Part shown: one piece after another, positions 20,505 through 61,113 of the stretch
Layout of the letters: each line of letters begins with the position of its first letter
Position numbering within the stretch: the stretch's first letter is position 1
Origin: Dehalococcoidia bacterium
Lineage (GTDB): Bacteria; Chloroflexota; Dehalococcoidia; Bin125
Direction: 5' to 3'
Assembly: GCA_022825855.1 (NCBI GenBank)
Contig: JAJDWB010000013.1
Coordinates: 62,001 to 126,000 of the forward strand
Length of the DNA stretch: 64,000 nt
Program-made: the position numbers and the translations under genes
The notes under the pieces: generated by a model
Told to the model about the DNA's origin: nothing
The model's input: the letters and a program-made list of their open reading frames with translations, nothing else
The model's database searches: none

Positions 20505-21773
20505 TCAGGCGCTGAGGTAGGCGGCGATGTCGGGACCGCCTTCGGTCAGGACAACGCCGGACTGGACCAATTGCTCTGTTTGCTCGGGCGTGACGCCCAG
20601 CCACGATTCGAGCACCTCCGCGGTGTCTTCGCCGAACTGCGGCGCGGCGCCGTAGACCCGGCCCGGGGTGCGCGACAGCTTGAGCGGAGATGCGGCCATG
20701 GTGACGTCCCCGGCGACCGGATGATGCACCGTGGTGATCATTTCGCGCGCGGCGATCTGTTCCTGCTGCACTGCCTGTCCGATGGTGTTTAGGGGGCCGA
20801 TCGGTATGCCGTACTGGGCGAGTGTCGAGACCCAATGCTCGGTGGACTGCTTGCGCGTCGCTGCAAAGAGGACAGGCTCGAGCTGGGCGTGATTCTCGGT
20901 GCGCTTGAAGGAGGTGTCGAAGCGTTCGTCGCCGACCAGCTCGGGCAGTCCGAGTTCGGCGCAGAAGATTTCCCACTGCGTCGCGATACCCCAGGACAGC
21001 GCGACGACCATCCAACCGTCGGCGGTGGGGAAGGCCTGGAAGGGTGTGGCCGAGGGGTGGCGGGTCCCCAGCGGTCCCGGCTCCTGGCCGGTCGCGAAGT
21101 AGCGGGCGACGGCGTTTTCGAGGATGGCGATCTGGCAGTCGAGCATGGAGATGTCGACCGATTGTCCGCGGCCGCTGTGATCGCGTTCGCGCAGCGCGGC
21201 GAGGATGCCGATGGCCGTATAGAAGCCGCCGCAGATGTCGCCGATCGACGTGCCTGGGCGCGCCGGCGGTTCGTCCGGGTATCCGGTGATGCTCATCACG
21301 CCGCCCATGCCCTGGACGATGATGTCGAGGGCCGGTTTGTCGCGCATTGGGCCGGTTTGGCCAAAGCCGGAGGTCGAAGCGAACACCAGGCGCGGGTTGC
21401 GTTCGAGCAGTGTCAGGGGACCGATGCCGAGCTTGTCCATCACGCCGGGTGTGAAGTTCTCCATGACGACGTCAGCTTTGTCTACGAGTTGCAGAAACAG
21501 GTCGTGACCCTCGCTGGAGCGCAGGTCAATCGAGATGCTCTTCTTGCCTCGGTTGACCGACTGGAAGTACATCGACTCGTTGTTGACGAACGGTCCCGTC
21601 GTGCGGGCGACATCGCCGTGCGGCGGTCGCTCGACCTTGACGACTTCGGCTCCGAGGTCGCAGAGGATCATGGCCGCGTAGGGACCGGCGAGAACCCAGG
21701 TCAGGTCGAGGATGCGGATACCGGCGAGCGGGCCGGGCGGATGTGTGTTGTTGCTGCTGTGGCTGTTGGTCAT
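20505..21773 (-). CDS. Family III CoA-transferase (CaiB/BaiF)
   Basis: A 422-residue family III CoA-transferase that moves CoA between an acyl-CoA and a free acid through aspartyl intermediates. Seen: GIRILDLTWVLAGPYAAMILCDLGAEVVKVE at the N-terminus, DVVMENFTPGVMDKLG and the likely catalytic Asp150 in KPALDIIVQG, where the family has Asp before the Gln/Gly stretch. The ATG at 21773 is supported by AGGAG upstream and the eight-base gap after the preceding stop. It sits between a 2-hydroxyacid dehydrogenase and a small regulator-like gene, pointing to a hydroxyacid as substrate. Confidence 0.93.
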   Translation of the reverse strand: MTNSHSSNNTHPPGPLAGIRILDLTWVLAGPYAAMILCDLGAEVVKVERPPHGDVARTTGPFVNNESMYFQSVNRGKKSISIDLRSSEGHDLFLQLVDKADVVMENFTPGVMDKLGIGPLTLLERNPRLVFASTSGFGQTGPMRDKPALDIIVQGMGGVMSITGYPDEPPARPGTSIGDICGGFYTAIGILAALRERDHSGRGQSVDISMLDCQIAILENAVARYFATGQEPGPLGTRHPSATPFQAFPTADGWMVVALSWGIATQWEIFCAELGLPELVGDERFDTSFKRTENHAQLEPVLFAATRKQSTEHWVSTLAQYGIPIGPLNTIGQAVQQEQIAAREMITTVHHPVAGDVTMAASPLKLSRTPGRVYGAAPQFGEDTAEVLESWLGVTPEQTEQLVQSGVVLTEGGPDIAAYLSA

Positions 21774-21781
21774 GGCGTCTC

Positions 21782-22783
21782 CTAAACGTCGCCCAGGCTG
21801 GGATCGGAGAGTTCGATGTCGGTGACGACCCATTCCAGCGGTTCGCCCGCGACCAGGTGGGCCAGGTTGGTGAAGAAGAAGTCGGCGGTGCGCAGGTATG
21901 AGGCGTCGACGTGACAGGAGTCGTGCGGGGTGATCCGGCAGTTTGGCAAGTCCCAGAGCGGGGAGTCGGGCGCCAACGGTTCCGTGGGGACGACATCGAG
22001 GACCGCGCCGGCAATCGTGCCGTTGCGCAGGGCATCGCCCAGCGCGTCGTGATCGACCACGCGCCCGCGGGCGACGTTGATCAGGAGGGCATGTCGTTGC
22101 ATAGCCGACAACGCATCTGCATCGATCAGATTGAGGGTCTCGTCGGTAAGGGGGCAGCAGAGGACGACATAATCGCTCTCGGCGAGGAGATGGTGGAGAC
22201 GGTCGGGTGCGAGGTGCAGGTCGAGAAGATCGTCACTCGGCGGACGGCGCTTGGTCGCGATCGTGCGCATCCCGAATGCGCGGCCGAGCCTCGCGCAGGC
22301 CTCGCCGATGCCGCCGTAGCCGACGATGCCGAGAGTCTGACCGGCGAGTTCGACCGAGTCGAGCGGAGACCACTGCCGTTCGGCCTGACGGTCAGTGTGC
22401 TGGGGCAGGCGCTTGGCGTGGCTGAGGATGTAGGCGAAGACGTACTCGGCGATTGGTCCGCCGTGTACGCCGGGCGAATTGGTCACGATCGATCCGGAGT
22501 CGATCAGGTGGGCGAAGATGGCGTGATCGACGCCGGTGCTGGCCGTCTGCATCCATCCGGGCCGGGCGGTATCCAGGAGCGAGATGAACGCTCCGGCGGC
22601 CTCGGGCAGATAGTAGAGATCCTCGGAGAAGAAGAAGCCGTCGAGATGGTCGGGATTGGCGGACCAGGAGCCATCGGGATGGAGCAGGACCACGTCGGCC
22701 TCGGGCGCGACCTCGCGGAGGCGCAGCCCGGCCCGCTCGTTGAGCTCGGTCGTTACGCCGATGCGCAGCGATGAGTTGGACAT
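21782..22783 (-). CDS. D-isomer-specific 2-hydroxyacid dehydrogenase
   Basis: A 333-residue D-2-hydroxyacid dehydrogenase of the glyoxylate/hydroxypyruvate reductase type. The NAD-binding segment is LGIVGYGGIGEACARLGRAFG, the catalytic Arg is in NVARGRVVD, the Glu in VVPTEPL, and the His in CRITPHDS. It heads the minus-strand unit (dehydrogenase, CoA-transferase, small regulator-like protein, second dehydrogenase) and diverges from an MFS carrier across 54 bases. The carrier could import the substrate. Only the general reaction can be stated. Confidence 0.92.
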   Translation of the reverse strand: MSNSSLRIGVTTELNERAGLRLREVAPEADVVLLHPDGSWSANPDHLDGFFFSEDLYYLPEAAGAFISLLDTARPGWMQTASTGVDHAIFAHLIDSGSIVTNSPGVHGGPIAEYVFAYILSHAKRLPQHTDRQAERQWSPLDSVELAGQTLGIVGYGGIGEACARLGRAFGMRTIATKRRPPSDDLLDLHLAPDRLHHLLAESDYVVLCCPLTDETLNLIDADALSAMQRHALLINVARGRVVDHDALGDALRNGTIAGAVLDVVPTEPLAPDSPLWDLPNCRITPHDSCHVDASYLRTADFFFTNLAHLVAGEPLEWVVTDIELSDPSLGDV

Positions 22784-24713: not shown

Positions 24714-25916
24714 TTACGCGTTGGCGAGGATGAGGGTGCCGGCTGAGGCGAACATGCCGCCGGGGCCGTGGGCCATGCTGACGTTGACGTCGGGGACCTG
24801 GCGGTCGCCGCATTCGCCGCGGAGCTGGCGGACGGACTCGATGATGGCGAACATGCCGTACATGCCGGTGTGGCAGTAGGAGAGACCGCCGCCGTTGGTG
24901 TTCATGGGGAAGTCGCCGCCGGGGCCGGACTTGTAGATGACCTCGCCGTCGGGACCGGTCCTGGTCTCGGCGAAGAACGGGCCGCCCTCACCCTTGGGCA
25001 CGAAGCCGAGGTCTTCGGCGGCCATCAGCGGGGTGAAGGTGAAGGCGTCGTAGAACATGCAGTGGTCGATGTCCTGGGGGCCGAGGCCGGCGCTCTTGTA
25101 GGCGGCTTCGCCGGCGATGCGGTAGCCGTCGGCGGTGGTGTGGTCGCGCATCTGCGAGACCATCCAGTGAGCAGCCGCTTCGCCTGCGCCGAGCACATAG
25201 ACCGGATCCTTGGCGTAGTCCTTGGCGCGTTCCTCGGAGACGAGCACGAGGGCGCCGCCGCCGTCGGCGACGACGCAGCAGTCGAGCAGGTTGAAGGGGT
25301 AGCAGATCATGCGCGAGTTGAGCACGTCTTGCGGCGTGATCGGTCCGCCGCCGCGCTCGGGGGCGCGGCGGTGGCTGCCCATCATGGCCATCGGGTTGAG
25401 GTTGGCCCAGGCGCGAGTGGCGGCGGCGATGTGAGCGAGGTGTTCCTTGGTTGTGCCGTACTCGTGGAAGTGGCGCAGCACGGGGATCGAGAAGGTGGTG
25501 GGCGCGCCGCCGATGGCGAAGGGCGCCTCGTACTGACCGCCGGGGGAGGAGGCGGAGCCGCCGCGCGGGGCGTCGACGCCGGAGCGACCGCTCTCGCCGT
25601 GGGTGACGAGGGCGACGTCGCAGTAGCCGGCCATGATCGCGGCGACGGCGTGGCGGACGTGAATCATGAACGAGCAGCCGCCGACCGATGTGCCGTCGAT
25701 GTAGCGGGGCTGGATGCCGAGGTACTCGGCCACCTCATTGGGAATCGCGCCGGCGCAGAGCAGGCCGTCCACATCGGCCAGCGAGATGCCGGCGTCGTCG
25801 AGGGCGTTCCTGGCCGACTGCGCGTGCAGCGCGAGGCGGGACATGTGGGGGAGCTGTCCGAGATCGTCGGTCTCGGCGGCGCCGACGATTGCGACCTTGT
25901 GTCGAATCTGATCCAT
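24714..25916 (-). CDS. Thiolase-like protein (SCP-x/lipid-transfer group)
   Basis: A 400-residue thiolase-fold protein. The region where the fold carries its nucleophile reads VGGCSFMIHVRHAVAAI, with Cys retained; the C-terminal signature is NTNGGGLSYCHTGMYG, with a His near the expected position, and QLRGECGDRQV follows. This matches SCP-x-type thiolase/acetyltransferase-like proteins that pair with DUF35 proteins. The DUF35 gene lies 39 bases upstream in the same direction, so they likely form a complex. The reaction could be cleavage or formation of a 3-oxoacyl-CoA, or an aldol reaction; the pathway is unknown. Compare the second pair at 59.5-61.1 kb. Confidence 0.85.
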   Translation of the reverse strand: MDQIRHKVAIVGAAETDDLGQLPHMSRLALHAQSARNALDDAGISLADVDGLLCAGAIPNEVAEYLGIQPRYIDGTSVGGCSFMIHVRHAVAAIMAGYCDVALVTHGESGRSGVDAPRGGSASSPGGQYEAPFAIGGAPTTFSIPVLRHFHEYGTTKEHLAHIAAATRAWANLNPMAMMGSHRRAPERGGGPITPQDVLNSRMICYPFNLLDCCVVADGGGALVLVSEERAKDYAKDPVYVLGAGEAAAHWMVSQMRDHTTADGYRIAGEAAYKSAGLGPQDIDHCMFYDAFTFTPLMAAEDLGFVPKGEGGPFFAETRTGPDGEVIYKSGPGGDFPMNTNGGGLSYCHTGMYGMFAIIESVRQLRGECGDRQVPDVNVSMAHGPGGMFASAGTLILANA

Positions 25917-25955: not shown

Positions 25956-26372
25956 CTAGACAGGCTTGAACTTGGGCAGGGTGACCTCGTCGGTGACGTC
26001 GTCGAAGACGATTTCGACGTCCATATCGACCGTGGTCTGGTAGGGGTCGTCGATGATCAGGTTGGACATCATGCGCGGGCCCTCTTCGAGTTCGATTACG
26101 GCGATCACGTAGGGCGGCGCGTTGTCCTCGGAGTTGTAAGGCGGAATCGGCTGGTGCGAGATGACGAAGGTGTGCACCTTGCCCTTGCCCGAGGCCTGGG
26201 TCCACTTGATGTCCCAGTTGAAGCAATCGGGCATGGGGCAGAACGGTCGCGGGTAGAAGTGCGGACCGCAGTCGTCGCAGGTGGGCAGCATCAGCTTGTG
26301 TTCTTTGAGACCGTCCCAGTAGGGCTGCGACTCGGGCGTCGCCACGGGCAGTCTGCCGGCGTAGTCGGCCAT
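25956..26372 (-). CDS. DUF35 (OB-fold/rubredoxin-like zinc ribbon) partner of thiolase
   Basis: A 138-residue protein. The N-terminus reads TPESQPYWDGLKEHKLMLPTCDDCG, the usual DUF35 helix followed by a zinc ribbon; cysteines occur in CDDC and later in FCPMPDC. The OB-fold follows, with SGKGKVHTFVISHQPIPPY and PPYVIAVIELEEGPRMMSNL. DUF35 proteins bind thiolase-fold partners, for example Ltp2-ChsH2 in steroid breakdown. AGAGGAG precedes the ATG. It sits immediately upstream of the thiolase-like gene. Confidence 0.9.
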   Translation of the reverse strand: MADYAGRLPVATPESQPYWDGLKEHKLMLPTCDDCGPHFYPRPFCPMPDCFNWDIKWTQASGKGKVHTFVISHQPIPPYNSEDNAPPYVIAVIELEEGPRMMSNLIIDDPYQTTVDMDVEIVFDDVTDEVTLPKFKPV

Positions 26373-56931: not shown

Positions 56932-59412
56932 ATGACGACTGCAGGGTCGGACACGCTGTTGGCCGGGGTGAGAGTGCTCGATCTGGCGACGCGCCGCGCA
57001 GAGATGGCGGGTCGAGTGCTCGCCGACATGGGCGCCGAGGTGATCAAGGTCGAGCCGCCAGAGGGCGCCGAAGCGCGTCGGCTGCCGCCGTTTAGCGACT
57101 CGGAGCCGGGTCGCTCGCTCTATTGGGCTTCGGTCGGCTTCGGCAAGCGCAGCGTGGTTGTCGATCTGGACTCGGAGCACGGCCGCGACGACTTCCGCGC
57201 CTTGCTCGCGACGGCCGACGTGCTGATCGAGTCGTTCGATCCTGGAACCATGTCGCGGTGGGGCCTGGGCTACGAGGACATTCAGGAGGAACATCCCGAA
57301 CTGATCTACGTGTCGGTCACGCCCTACGGACAGGACGGACCGCATGCCGATCGGCCGGCGACCGATCTGACGATCGAGTCCGCCGGCGGCCTGGTCGGGC
57401 TGCAAGGCGACGGCGACCGGCCGCCGGTGCCTGTGGGATTTCCGCAGGCCTCGATTCATGCCGGCGTGCAGGCAGCGGCCGATACGTCGATCGCCCTGCG
57501 CGAGCGCGAGCTGTCGGGTCTGGGACAGCATCTCGATGTGTCGATGCAGGCGGCGGTGGTCTGGACGCTGATGCACGCAACTGGGTTCCCGCCGAACACG
57601 GGCGGCGATCCGCCGGGTACCTGCGCGCAGCGTAACATCGGCGGCGACAACATGGGCGGCGCCGTGATGGGCGTGCATCCCTGCCTCGACGGTTACATCG
57701 TCTTCAGCATCGTGCCGGGCGGTCTGGGGCTGCGCCACTCGACGTTGGTCTTGAAGTGGATCGAGGAAGAGGGGGAGCTGATCGGTGAGCTGGAGGGCGC
57801 AAACATTGACGAGTGGGCCGCCAACATCGCCCGCCTGGTGACGGAAGATCCGGCCGAAGTGGGCCGGCAGGTGGTGATCGCGACGGAGAATATGCACCAC
57901 TTCGTGGCCAAGAAGACGATGGCCGAGTGCTTCGAGCGGGCGGTCCGCGACAGCTTCATGATGGCCCCGCTCTACACGATGGAGCAGATCGCCAGCGACA
58001 CGCATCTGGCCGCCCGGAACTTCTGGGTCGATATCGACGGACACCGCTATCCGGGACCGTTCGCCAAGCTCTCGGAGACGCCGCTGCAGCTCAACCGGCC
58101 CGCGCCGACGCTGGGCCAGGACCAACATCTGCTGGCCGAGGTCGGCCGCGCGTCCAGGCGGGCGGCGCGCCCGCCGGTCTCCTCCAACGGCGTGCGGGGC
58201 GAGGACGGCGGCGCGCTGTCTGGTGTCAAGATTGCCGACTTTGCCTGGGTCGGCGTGGGTCCGCTGATCTCCAAGTCGATGGCCGACCACGGCGCAACCG
58301 TGGTGCACATCGAGTCGGCGACGCGGCCGGATGTGCTGCGCCTGGCGCCGCCGTTCAAGGACAACGAGCCGGGCATGGACCGGGCGCAGTTCATGGCCAA
58401 CTTCAACTCGTCCAAGATCGGCGTCGCCCTGCGGCTCAACACGGAGCAGGGAAGAGACTACGCCCGCCAACTGATCGACTGGGCCGATGTGGTCGTCGAG
58501 TCGTTCACGCCTGGCACGATGAAGCAGTTTGGCTTCGACTACGCGACGCTCAGTCAAGATCGCCCTGAGCTGATCATGTTGAGCACCTGCCTGCGCGGGC
58601 AAACGGGACCCGAGTCGAGTTATCCCGGGTTCGGCCTGCAAGGCGCCTGTCTGTCGGGTCTGCACCGGATCACGGGTTGGCCCGACCGTCAACCCGCGGG
58701 CACCTGGGGCGCGTACACGGACTTCATCAACCCGCGCTTCGGTTCAGGCGTGTTGGCGGCTGCGATTCGTCACCGCGACCGGACCGGGCAGGGCCAGTAC
58801 ATCGACCTGGCACAGAGCGAGGCGGGGATTCATTTTGCCGCGCCGCTGCTGCTCGACTACATCGAGAACGGCCGGATCGCGCAGGCGCCGGGCCACGACT
58901 CGCTGTATGCGGCCCCGCACGGTGTGTTCCGCGTCGGTGAGGGCGAGCGCTACGTAGCGATCGCGACCGAAACCGCGGAACAGTGGCAAGCCCTTCGCGA
59001 TGCGGCTGGTCTGGAGCACTGGTCGAGCGCCGACTACGACGACCTCTCGGCCCGGGTCGCCGCCAAGGCGGAGATCGAGGCGGCGCTCGCCGCGTGGTGT
59101 GCGCCGCAAACCGCGGACGCGGTGGTCGATTGCCTGACCGCCGCCGGCGTGCCGGCGTCGATGGTCGAGTGGCCGTCGGACCTCTATGAGGACGCCCAGC
59201 TCGCGCACCGGGACTTCTTCGTCACGCTGAACCACTCGGTGATGGGTCCGACGCCGTACGACGGCCTGGTGACGAAGTTCTCGGGCGGGACGGCGAAGCT
59301 GCGACGCGCCGCGCCGGCAATCGGCGAGCACACGCACTATGTGCTGTCGGAGATTCTCTCGGTCTCTGACGAAGAGATCACGGAGGCACTCGTCGCCGGT
59401 GTGTTTCAGTAA
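56932..59412 (+). CDS. Double family III CoA-transferase (two tandem CaiB/BaiF domains)
   Basis: An 826-residue protein with two full CaiB/BaiF domains. Domain 1 (about 1-405) starts LLAGVRVLDLATRRAEMAGRVLADMGAEVIKVE and has the catalytic-type Asp145 in RPATDLTIES. Domain 2 (about 431-826) starts GALSGVKIADFAWVGVGPLISKSMADHGATVVHIES; at the equivalent place it reads YPGFGLQGA, with Gly566 where Asp is expected. Family III enzymes are dimers with interlocked chains, so a fused pseudo-dimer with one working site is plausible. It lies 61 bases before the Ltp2-like gene. Confidence 0.88.
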   Translation: MTTAGSDTLLAGVRVLDLATRRAEMAGRVLADMGAEVIKVEPPEGAEARRLPPFSDSEPGRSLYWASVGFGKRSVVVDLDSEHGRDDFRALLATADVLIESFDPGTMSRWGLGYEDIQEEHPELIYVSVTPYGQDGPHADRPATDLTIESAGGLVGLQGDGDRPPVPVGFPQASIHAGVQAAADTSIALRERELSGLGQHLDVSMQAAVVWTLMHATGFPPNTGGDPPGTCAQRNIGGDNMGGAVMGVHPCLDGYIVFSIVPGGLGLRHSTLVLKWIEEEGELIGELEGANIDEWAANIARLVTEDPAEVGRQVVIATENMHHFVAKKTMAECFERAVRDSFMMAPLYTMEQIASDTHLAARNFWVDIDGHRYPGPFAKLSETPLQLNRPAPTLGQDQHLLAEVGRASRRAARPPVSSNGVRGEDGGALSGVKIADFAWVGVGPLISKSMADHGATVVHIESATRPDVLRLAPPFKDNEPGMDRAQFMANFNSSKIGVALRLNTEQGRDYARQLIDWADVVVESFTPGTMKQFGFDYATLSQDRPELIMLSTCLRGQTGPESSYPGFGLQGACLSGLHRITGWPDRQPAGTWGAYTDFINPRFGSGVLAAAIRHRDRTGQGQYIDLAQSEAGIHFAAPLLLDYIENGRIAQAPGHDSLYAAPHGVFRVGEGERYVAIATETAEQWQALRDAAGLEHWSSADYDDLSARVAAKAEIEAALAAWCAPQTADAVVDCLTAAGVPASMVEWPSDLYEDAQLAHRDFFVTLNHSVMGPTPYDGLVTKFSGGTAKLRRAAPAIGEHTHYVLSEILSVSDEEITEALVAGVFQ

Positions 59413-59473
59413 CCGTCGATTCCCGGGTATCCCCTAAACTGCCAGCAACGATTCGCAAGGAAGGACAAAAGAG

Positions 59474-60655
59474 ATGGGCAACCGCACGATGCGTGGCGAA
59501 ACTGCCATTATCGGCGTCGGCGAGACGACCTACTACAAGCGCGGCCGCTCCCCGGACGCCGAGTTCAAGCTCGTGATCGAAGCGATCCTCAAGGCCAGCG
59601 CCGATGCCGGGATCGATCCGCGCGAAATCAATGGTTTTGCGTCTTACTCCAACGACCGTAACGACCCGTCACGGATCGCGGCGGCGCTGGACATCAAGGA
59701 TCTGCGCTTCTCCAACATGGAGTGGGGCGGCGGCGGCGGCGGCGGTTCGGCAGCCTGCGCCCACGCGGCGTCGGCCGTGGCAACCGGACTCGCCGATACC
59801 GTCGTGGTCTTCCGCGGACTCGCGCAGGGGCAGTTTGGCCGCTTCGGTCAGGGCGCTCGGGTGCCGCACGTCCGCGGCGACCAGGCGTACACCGCGCCCT
59901 ACGGGTTGATGTCACCGGCGCAGTCGTTCGCGATGCGCGTCCATCGACTGTTCGACGACCACGGCATCACGCAGGACACGCTCAAGGCCTGTTCGCTGGC
60001 GTCGTACCACCACGCCCAGAACAATCCGCGAGCGGTCATGTACGGTCGGCCGCTGACGCCCGAGGACTATGACGCCTCCCGGTGGATTGTGGAGCCCTTC
60101 CACCTGTTCGACTGCTGCCAGGAGAACGACGGCGCCGCGGCGATGATCTTCGTCTCGGCCGACCGGGCCAAGGACTTCGCCAAGACGCCGGTCTACTTCC
60201 TCGGCGGCGCGGTCGGTTCGGGCAACCGGGCCGGATCCGGCTCGCACAACGCGACAGACTACGCGACGTCGAATTTCAAGACGGTGGCGCCGCGCATGTA
60301 CGACATGGCGCAGGTCAAGCCAGAGGAAGTCGACGTGGCGCAGGTCTACGAGAACTTCACCGGCGGCGTGGTGATGAGCATCATCGAGCACGGGCTGACT
60401 TCCTACGAAGAAGCCAACGAGTTCATCACCTTCGACAACCTGATCGCGCCGAGCGGCAAGATGCCGATCAACACCAGCGGCGGCAACCTGGCCGAATGCT
60501 ACATGCACGGTCTGGAGCTGAACATCGAGGCCGTTCGGCAGGTGCGAGGCGAGTCCTGTAACCAGGTCGATGACGTGAACGTCTCGCTGGTCGCCTCGGG
60601 TCCGATGGTGACACCGGTATCCGACATGATCGTCGGTTCAGAGGCGGTGCTCTAA
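59474..60655 (+). CDS. Thiolase-fold protein resembling Ltp2-type aldolase
   Basis: A 393-residue thiolase-fold protein. The nucleophile region reads EWGGGGGGGSAACAHAASAV, in which Gly replaces the thiolase Cys position by my alignment to the other thiolase in the window. The C-terminus reads NTSGGNLAECYMHGLELNIEAVRQVRGE, with Tyr where thiolases have His. Both changes resemble the Ltp2 aldolases that use Tyr residues. The DUF35 gene overlaps its stop as TAATG, as in Ltp2-ChsH2 complexes. A retro-aldol cleavage of a hydroxyacyl-CoA is the inference; AAGGA precedes the ATG. Confidence 0.8.
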   Translation: MGNRTMRGETAIIGVGETTYYKRGRSPDAEFKLVIEAILKASADAGIDPREINGFASYSNDRNDPSRIAAALDIKDLRFSNMEWGGGGGGGSAACAHAASAVATGLADTVVVFRGLAQGQFGRFGQGARVPHVRGDQAYTAPYGLMSPAQSFAMRVHRLFDDHGITQDTLKACSLASYHHAQNNPRAVMYGRPLTPEDYDASRWIVEPFHLFDCCQENDGAAAMIFVSADRAKDFAKTPVYFLGGAVGSGNRAGSGSHNATDYATSNFKTVAPRMYDMAQVKPEEVDVAQVYENFTGGVVMSIIEHGLTSYEEANEFITFDNLIAPSGKMPINTSGGNLAECYMHGLELNIEAVRQVRGESCNQVDDVNVSLVASGPMVTPVSDMIVGSEAVL

Positions 60656-61113
60656 TGGCGAATCCTGGACGTTACTACCTGGGCGAGGGCATGCCTGCCC
60701 CCGCGCCGTCCATTGACGGGCTCGACACCGAGTACTGGGAAGGCCTGAAGCGCCACAAGCTCTTCGTCCAGCACTGTCACACGTGCGATCGCCCCCAGTT
60801 CGGTCCCGAATGGGTCTGCCACATTTGCCACAGCTTTGATCTGGGCTGGCGAGAGGTCGAAGGCCACGGCCGGATCTACTCGTGGGAGCGCGTATGGCAC
60901 CCGGTCCATCCTGCTTTGCAGGATTCGTGCCCATACCTCGTCGTCCTGGTCGAACTGCCCAACCACGAGAATGTGCGCATGGTCGGCAATCTCGTCGGCG
61001 ACCCGATGCAGACGGTCGAGATCGGCGCGGAAGTGCGCCCCGTGTTCGAAGATCACGAGGGCAACGACGAGGTCGAGCCGTTCACCCTGGTGCACTGGGA
61101 ACTGGTCGGCTAA
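60655..61113 (+). CDS. DUF35 (OB-fold zinc ribbon) partner of Ltp2-like protein
   Basis: A 152-residue DUF35 protein. DTEYWEGLKRHKLFVQHCHTCDRPQFGPEWVCHICHSFDLGWREVEGHGRIYSWERVWHP has the zinc-binding CHTC and CHIC pairs and the OB-fold start; NLVGDPMQTVEIGAEVRPVFEDHEG follows. One base overlaps the thiolase-like stop (TAATG), so the pair is translationally coupled and probably forms a complex. Confidence 0.92.
   Translation: MANPGRYYLGEGMPAPAPSIDGLDTEYWEGLKRHKLFVQHCHTCDRPQFGPEWVCHICHSFDLGWREVEGHGRIYSWERVWHPVHPALQDSCPYLVVLVELPNHENVRMVGNLVGDPMQTVEIGAEVRPVFEDHEGNDEVEPFTLVHWELVG

Follow-up and report, generated by a model that had tools for sequence, protein, structure and literature searches.

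Related systems described previously

The steroid retro-aldolase Ltp2, which acts together with ChsH2 (Thermomonospora curvata, PDB 6ok1), belongs to a steroid gene cluster and uses 17-hydroxysteroid CoA. Two tyrosines of Ltp2 (Tyr294 and Tyr344) serve as base and acid, and in the bile acid aldolase Sal a pair of Tyr and Cys is used (PMC12329534). Ltp2 activity requires the DUF35 protein, as gene disruption in Comamonas has shown (PMC12502768). A known example from outside steroid breakdown is IpfD/IpfE of the ibuprofen pathway, in which CoA activation and dioxygenation precede a retro-aldol release of propionyl-CoA (PMC9195938). IpfD and IpfE were assigned here by their positions in the gene cluster of pIBU218 (Rhizorhabdus wittichii MPO218), where the IpfD gene adjoins genes for an OB-fold protein, a ligase and a dioxygenase. 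IpfD is annotated as "hypothetical protein" and carries a YDAF motif, a second Tyr and no Cys; thus, the signature of two tyrosines is not steroid-specific. The same plasmid has a second Ltp2-type gene (59% to T. curvata Ltp2, TcLtp2), in a stretch (L175:6525-10143) with the order CoA-transferase, enoyl-CoA hydratase, OB-fold protein and Ltp2-like protein.

Among CoA-transferases, the succinyl-CoA:(R)-benzylsuccinate CoA-transferase BbsEF (9fn0, 9fol) combines one silent half with one half bearing the catalytic Asp. BbsE and BbsF are separate chains, and the enzyme goes with a true thiolase, BbsAB. Enzymes of the BbsEF type take CoA from succinyl-CoA and pass it to an alkyl- or arylsuccinate.

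Gene layout and conservation of the locus

The window, i.e. the whole stretch of 64,000 nucleotides analysed here, belongs to an assembly of 2.8 Mb. Near the end of the window, three genes (hereafter the trio) lie on one strand in the order given in the earlier note, with a gap of 61 bases between the first two and a one-base overlap (TAATG) between the last two, as read from the sequence. Their features are as follows.

56932..59412, + strand: fused family III CoA-transferase, 826 aa, with a BbsE-like and a BbsF-like half (Pfam, PDB matches, asymmetric site)
57451..57453, + strand: Ser174, at the catalytic-Asp position of transferase domain 1, the putative silent half (alignment of family III transferases)
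58720..58722, + strand: Asp597, predicted catalytic Asp of transferase domain 2 (aligned with BbsF Asp178; 15 homologues)
59474..60655, + strand: Ltp2-like thiolase-fold protein, putative retro-aldolase, 393 aa (6ok1 best match by sequence and fold; tree)
59726..59746, + strand: Gly85-Gly91 of the aldolase, at the position of the thiolase nucleophile Cys (alignment)
60347..60349, + strand: Tyr292 (YENF), corresponding to Ltp2 Tyr294 and proposed as the catalytic base (alignment; Ltp2 roles from PMC12329534)
60500..60502, + strand: Tyr343 (ECY), corresponding to Ltp2 Tyr344 and proposed as the catalytic acid (alignment; PMC12329534)
60655..61113, + strand: stand-alone DUF35 protein (zinc ribbon and OB fold), 152 aa, putative aldolase partner (Pfam; PDB 9myr_B, 6ok1_B)
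60775..60828, + strand: zinc ribbon of the DUF35 protein with Cys41, Cys44, Cys55 and Cys58 (alignment with 6ok1_B)

In Pfam searches, the transferase ORF showed two CoA_transf_3 stretches (6e-170), the aldolase ORF Thiolase_C_1 (1.5e-25), and the DUF35 ORF zf-ChsH2 and OB_ChsH2_C. A convergent gene for PEP carboxylase lies downstream of the trio. Upstream, past a small ORF, are genes for a DRTGG protein, an O-methyltransferase, an HU-like protein, two proteins resembling acyl-CoA dehydrogenases and a further CoA-transferase. Unlike the IpfD/IpfE cluster, which contains an ATP-dependent ligase for activation and ring dioxygenase genes, the trio has neither a CoA ligase gene nor a ring dioxygenase gene beside it, and no hydratase or oxygenase gene adjoins it in the source genome.

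Within the genus, 12 named loci keep the order of the trio, as does one cut locus of a sister genus, which argues against a chance arrangement. The transferase was found in all the 15 genomes of the genus (75-100% identity) and the aldolase in 14 of them (96-100% identity), the locus of the fifteenth being truncated at a contig edge. The dN/dS ratios were 0.02-0.03 for the aldolase, 0.01-0.09 for the DUF35 protein and 0.05-0.21 for the transferase halves, and all parts of the trio are under purifying selection. However, conservation is much stronger in the aldolase than in the transferase, so one shared constraint may not hold for both.

The fused CoA-transferase

The first protein had been described in the earlier note as a double CoA-transferase. 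Two domains are indeed present in one chain, the first aligning over its full length with BbsE and the second with BbsF, but the implication of two active domains has to be dropped since there is only one catalytic Asp. Asp597 sits in the alignment at the position of BbsF Asp178, the CoA-bearing residue in 9fol, and is invariant in 15 homologues. The corresponding site of domain 1, Ser174 in the window, is Ser, Ala or Pro across the genus and never Asp; an exception outside the genus is the BbsE-like half of genome G039, which retains the Asp. The best solved match of the fused protein was BbsEF (9fn0), both by sequence and by a structural model that has moderate confidence only (pLDDT 70). 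From these comparisons the protein is predicted to be one BbsEF-type enzyme with an active and a silent half, here joined in a single chain and, in contrast to BbsEF, adjoining a retro-aldolase-like pair. A BbsE/BbsF-like gene pair also occurs on plasmid 2 of Aromatoleum EbN1 (L171:5188-9203), right after UbiX/UbiD genes and with no thiolase gene.

The aldolase-like protein and its DUF35 partner

The active site of the second protein was compared with Cys thiolases and known aldolases by alignment. A run of seven Gly (85-91) lies where Cys thiolases show CASG, and the first thiolase His (HDxF) is replaced by Tyr292 (YENF), both as proposed earlier. In addition, the second thiolase His (GHP) is replaced by Tyr343 (ECY). 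An intact Cys/His site, which had been named beforehand as the result that would speak against an aldolase, is therefore absent: Gly, Tyr and Tyr occupy its three positions. The Gly run and both tyrosines are conserved across the roughly 100 closest homologues, nearly all of which share the YENF motif, whereas Ltp2 has YDHF and its His296 is replaced by Asn294 in the window protein. Therefore, apart from this replacement, the protein follows the Ltp2 pattern.

An AlphaFold model of the protein (mean pLDDT 79, pTM 0.86, with less reliable loops around residues 122-145 and 252-261) was compared with solved structures, as the earlier note had suggested for Ltp2-ChsH2. The Ltp2 structure 6ok1 was the top fold match (Z 47.7 over 374 residues), followed by Sal (Z 42.1), 4u4e (40.7) and Cys thiolases (at most 40.5). 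In the phylogenetic tree, a branch with 99/99 support separated all the proteins with two tyrosines, YDxF or YENF from Cys thiolases. The window aldolase was placed in a widespread clade (100/98) that also holds proteins from Chloroflexota, from proteobacteria and from Burkholderiales plasmids; TcLtp2, Sal and 4u4e lie outside it. Its score against NCBIfam PRK07855 was 356.7 bits, below the cut-off of 469, and TcLtp2 scored 709.9. The two tyrosines and the Gly site, taken with the score below the cut-off, suggest that the protein probably works like Ltp2 but should not be filed as Ltp2.

The resemblance to the known systems is partial in each case. Ltp2-ChsH2 shares the thiolase fold, the Gly at the nucleophile position, both tyrosines and a four-Cys DUF35 protein, but Ltp2 is only about 36% identical to the window aldolase. 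IpfD/IpfE shares the Tyr/Tyr site, the lack of Cys and an OB-fold partner at 28% identity between the aldolases. Sal-Shy (9myr) shares the thiolase fold, the first catalytic Tyr and a DUF35 partner, but Sal has Tyr302 and Cys304 (YDCY) and a Gln at the position of the second Tyr, and the zinc site of its DUF35 partner is Cys3His1 while that of the window protein has four Cys.

These four residues (Cys41, Cys44, Cys55 and Cys58) align with the zinc ligands of ChsH2 (6ok1_B); unlike ChsH2, the window DUF35 protein has no MaoC domain. A scan of GTDB contigs yielded 559 related stretches, from which 80 loci were kept, and in all the 80 the DUF35 gene directly follows the aldolase gene.

Occurrence of CoA-transferases beside the aldolase-DUF35 pair

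The scanned loci bear on whether the transferase belongs with the pair at all. Alternatively, the aldolase and the DUF35 protein may act independently, with the transferase as a lineage-specific neighbour serving other acids and with the CoA esters for the aldolase coming from beta-oxidation-like steps. Consistent with such independence, most of the 80 loci contain the pair without a transferase. In a set of 67 loci, mostly proteobacterial and excluding the genus with its nearest relative, transferases showed no higher density within 2 kb of the pair (5) than at greater distance (9; p = 0.41). An MFE-2/MaoC hydratase adjoins the pair in 16-17 loci, a MaoC-type hydratase occurring with the pair in many marine proteobacteria as well as in Variovorax SRS16; no match to the MFE-2 hydratase (PF22622) was found in the source genome. 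That genome is also rich in CaiB-type transferases (73 candidates at first look).

However, the order of the trio is constant throughout the genus, and transferase pairs recur beside Cys-less thiolase/DUF35 genes in several lineages and in varied layouts. In two genomes from other families of the same class (G043 and G039), separate BbsE/BbsF-like genes lie downstream of the pair, and in a gammaproteobacterium (L130) a fused BbsE/BbsF-like transferase does so. In Rhodococcus opacus and Variovorax SRS16 the genes are separate and lie upstream, in SRS16 in the order of the window and with a MaoC gene after. The aldolases of SRS16 and Rhodococcus fall outside the clade of the window aldolase, which suggests that these units were assembled separately. 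Plasmids of Burkholderiales carry a single transferase gene that overlaps or abuts the aldolase gene, with an OB-fold gene next in order, and this overlap also argues against independence. In view of these recurrences, we consider an independent pair unlikely.

Some lineages thus show a real link between transferase and pair, and others lack it. The activation-and-cleavage unit proposed in the earlier note is partly supported by the recurring genomic association; no general enrichment was seen over the 67 loci.

The Burkholderiales plasmid clusters hold a Rieske oxygenase gene, in most cases together with genes for a reductase and tricarboxylate-transporter binding proteins. In the clusters L162, L163, L165, L166 and L174, which look catabolic, the reductase present in most is of VanB type, and genes for a CoA-transferase and for what is probably an alpha-methylacyl-CoA racemase occur as well. 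In the Delftia clusters L162 and L174, the gene overlapping the aldolase gene is of the NLVGDYGGGS type, presumably this racemase, and a transferase lies nearby instead. Delftia versions of the cluster are located near IS1071.

Proposed function

On balance, we favour the reading that the trio forms an ATP-independent activation-and-cleavage module for an organic acid, and activation and retro-aldol cleavage likely belong to one pathway. Homology with the described systems points to CoA transfer, a complex with the DUF35 protein and a retro-aldol reaction. The fused transferase would use Asp597 of its second half to charge the acid with CoA taken from a donor thioester, and its first half would stay silent, apparently like BbsE. 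With the DUF35 protein at its side, the thiolase-fold protein would split a beta-hydroxyacyl-CoA by a retro-aldol reaction: Tyr292 would deprotonate the beta-hydroxyl group, the C-C bond would break, and Tyr343 would protonate the acyl-CoA enolate, leaving an aldehyde or ketone and a short acyl-CoA. The acid would either bear the beta-hydroxyl from the start or acquire it after activation and before cleavage, through enzymes whose genes lie elsewhere. Since a Rieske oxygenase or a MaoC-type hydratase accompanies the pair in relatives, an oxidation or hydration step may intervene between activation and cleavage. Citrate lyase follows a similar logic, in which ATP-free CoA transfer is followed by C-C cleavage releasing an acyl-CoA, with unrelated protein families.

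More tentatively, and with considerable doubt on our part, the trio may represent a recurrently assembled catabolic module, in which a CoA-transferase (in many cases a pair or fusion of BbsEF type) and a thiolase-fold retro-aldolase/DUF35 pair cut acids whose beta-carbon blocks beta-oxidation. The released acyl-CoA would serve as the next CoA donor, so that no ATP would be spent. No paper describing a unit of CoA-transferase, DUF35 protein and retro-aldolase was found in the literature searched, which covered few subscription journals.

The Cys-less fold might instead form C-C bonds or catalyse another reaction of CoA esters, with the DUF35 protein acting as a scaffold, the role it has in PhlABC and in the complex of HMG-CoA synthase. 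Aldol reactions are reversible, and DUF35 partners are also found in biosynthetic thiolase-fold complexes, of which 6esq and 5m3k were among the fold matches. However, the 6esq complex keeps its Cys nucleophile in the alignment, as does PhlC, and related loci have catabolic neighbours (Rieske oxygenase, tricarboxylate-transporter binding proteins and beta-oxidation genes), which makes a biosynthetic role improbable. Least probable is a genuine aldolase for the side chains of steroids or triterpenoids, i.e. an Ltp2 orthologue acting on host or sea-water sterols: Ltp2 is the closest solved relative and SAR202 bacteria have been proposed to attack sterols (PMC5395668), but the protein misses the PRK07855 cut-off that TcLtp2 easily passes and branches in a separate clade, the DUF35 protein is not fused to MaoC as in ChsH2, a CoA-transferase gene rather than a MaoC/ChsH1-like hydratase gene adjoins the pair, and no HsaA, the steroid-ring enzyme, scored above its cut-off in the source genome, so that the earlier statement that no steroid genes are near holds as far as tested.

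Genome-wide setting

Its class and the expansion of CoA-transferases suggest that the source bacterium is SAR202-like. In SAR202, CaiB-type CoA-transferases are abundant and were proposed to provide an ATP-free entry of acids into metabolism (Landry and co-workers, PMC5395668); neither thiolases nor DUF35 came up in a word search of that paper. The trio offers a concrete next step after such activation, namely C-C cleavage. Since cultivated Variovorax, Delftia, Cupriavidus and Burkholderia carry relatives of the unit on plasmids, its function and substrate are accessible to laboratory tests. Relatives of the aldolase are often annotated as acetyl-CoA acetyltransferases, an annotation that is probably wrong.

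According to our searches, on which the genome-wide counts rest, the source genome (G000) has ten DUF35 genes, each adjoining one of ten thiolase-like genes (the trio and L149-L157). The first thiolase His is replaced by Tyr in all ten, and the Cys is absent in at least nine, the remaining one (C16) aligning poorly. Across the class, the number of DUF35 genes per genome ranges from 0 to 14. The window itself contains a second pair of a Cys-less thiolase-like gene (24714-25916, - strand; 4u4e-like, with YDAF) and a DUF35 gene (about 25956-26372, - strand), with a single CoA-transferase gene at 20505-21833 on the same strand. Relatives of the window aldolase come mostly from environmental MAGs; one at 68% (L111) is in a record titled as a Klebsiella pneumoniae MAG, which is probably a mislabelled assembly.
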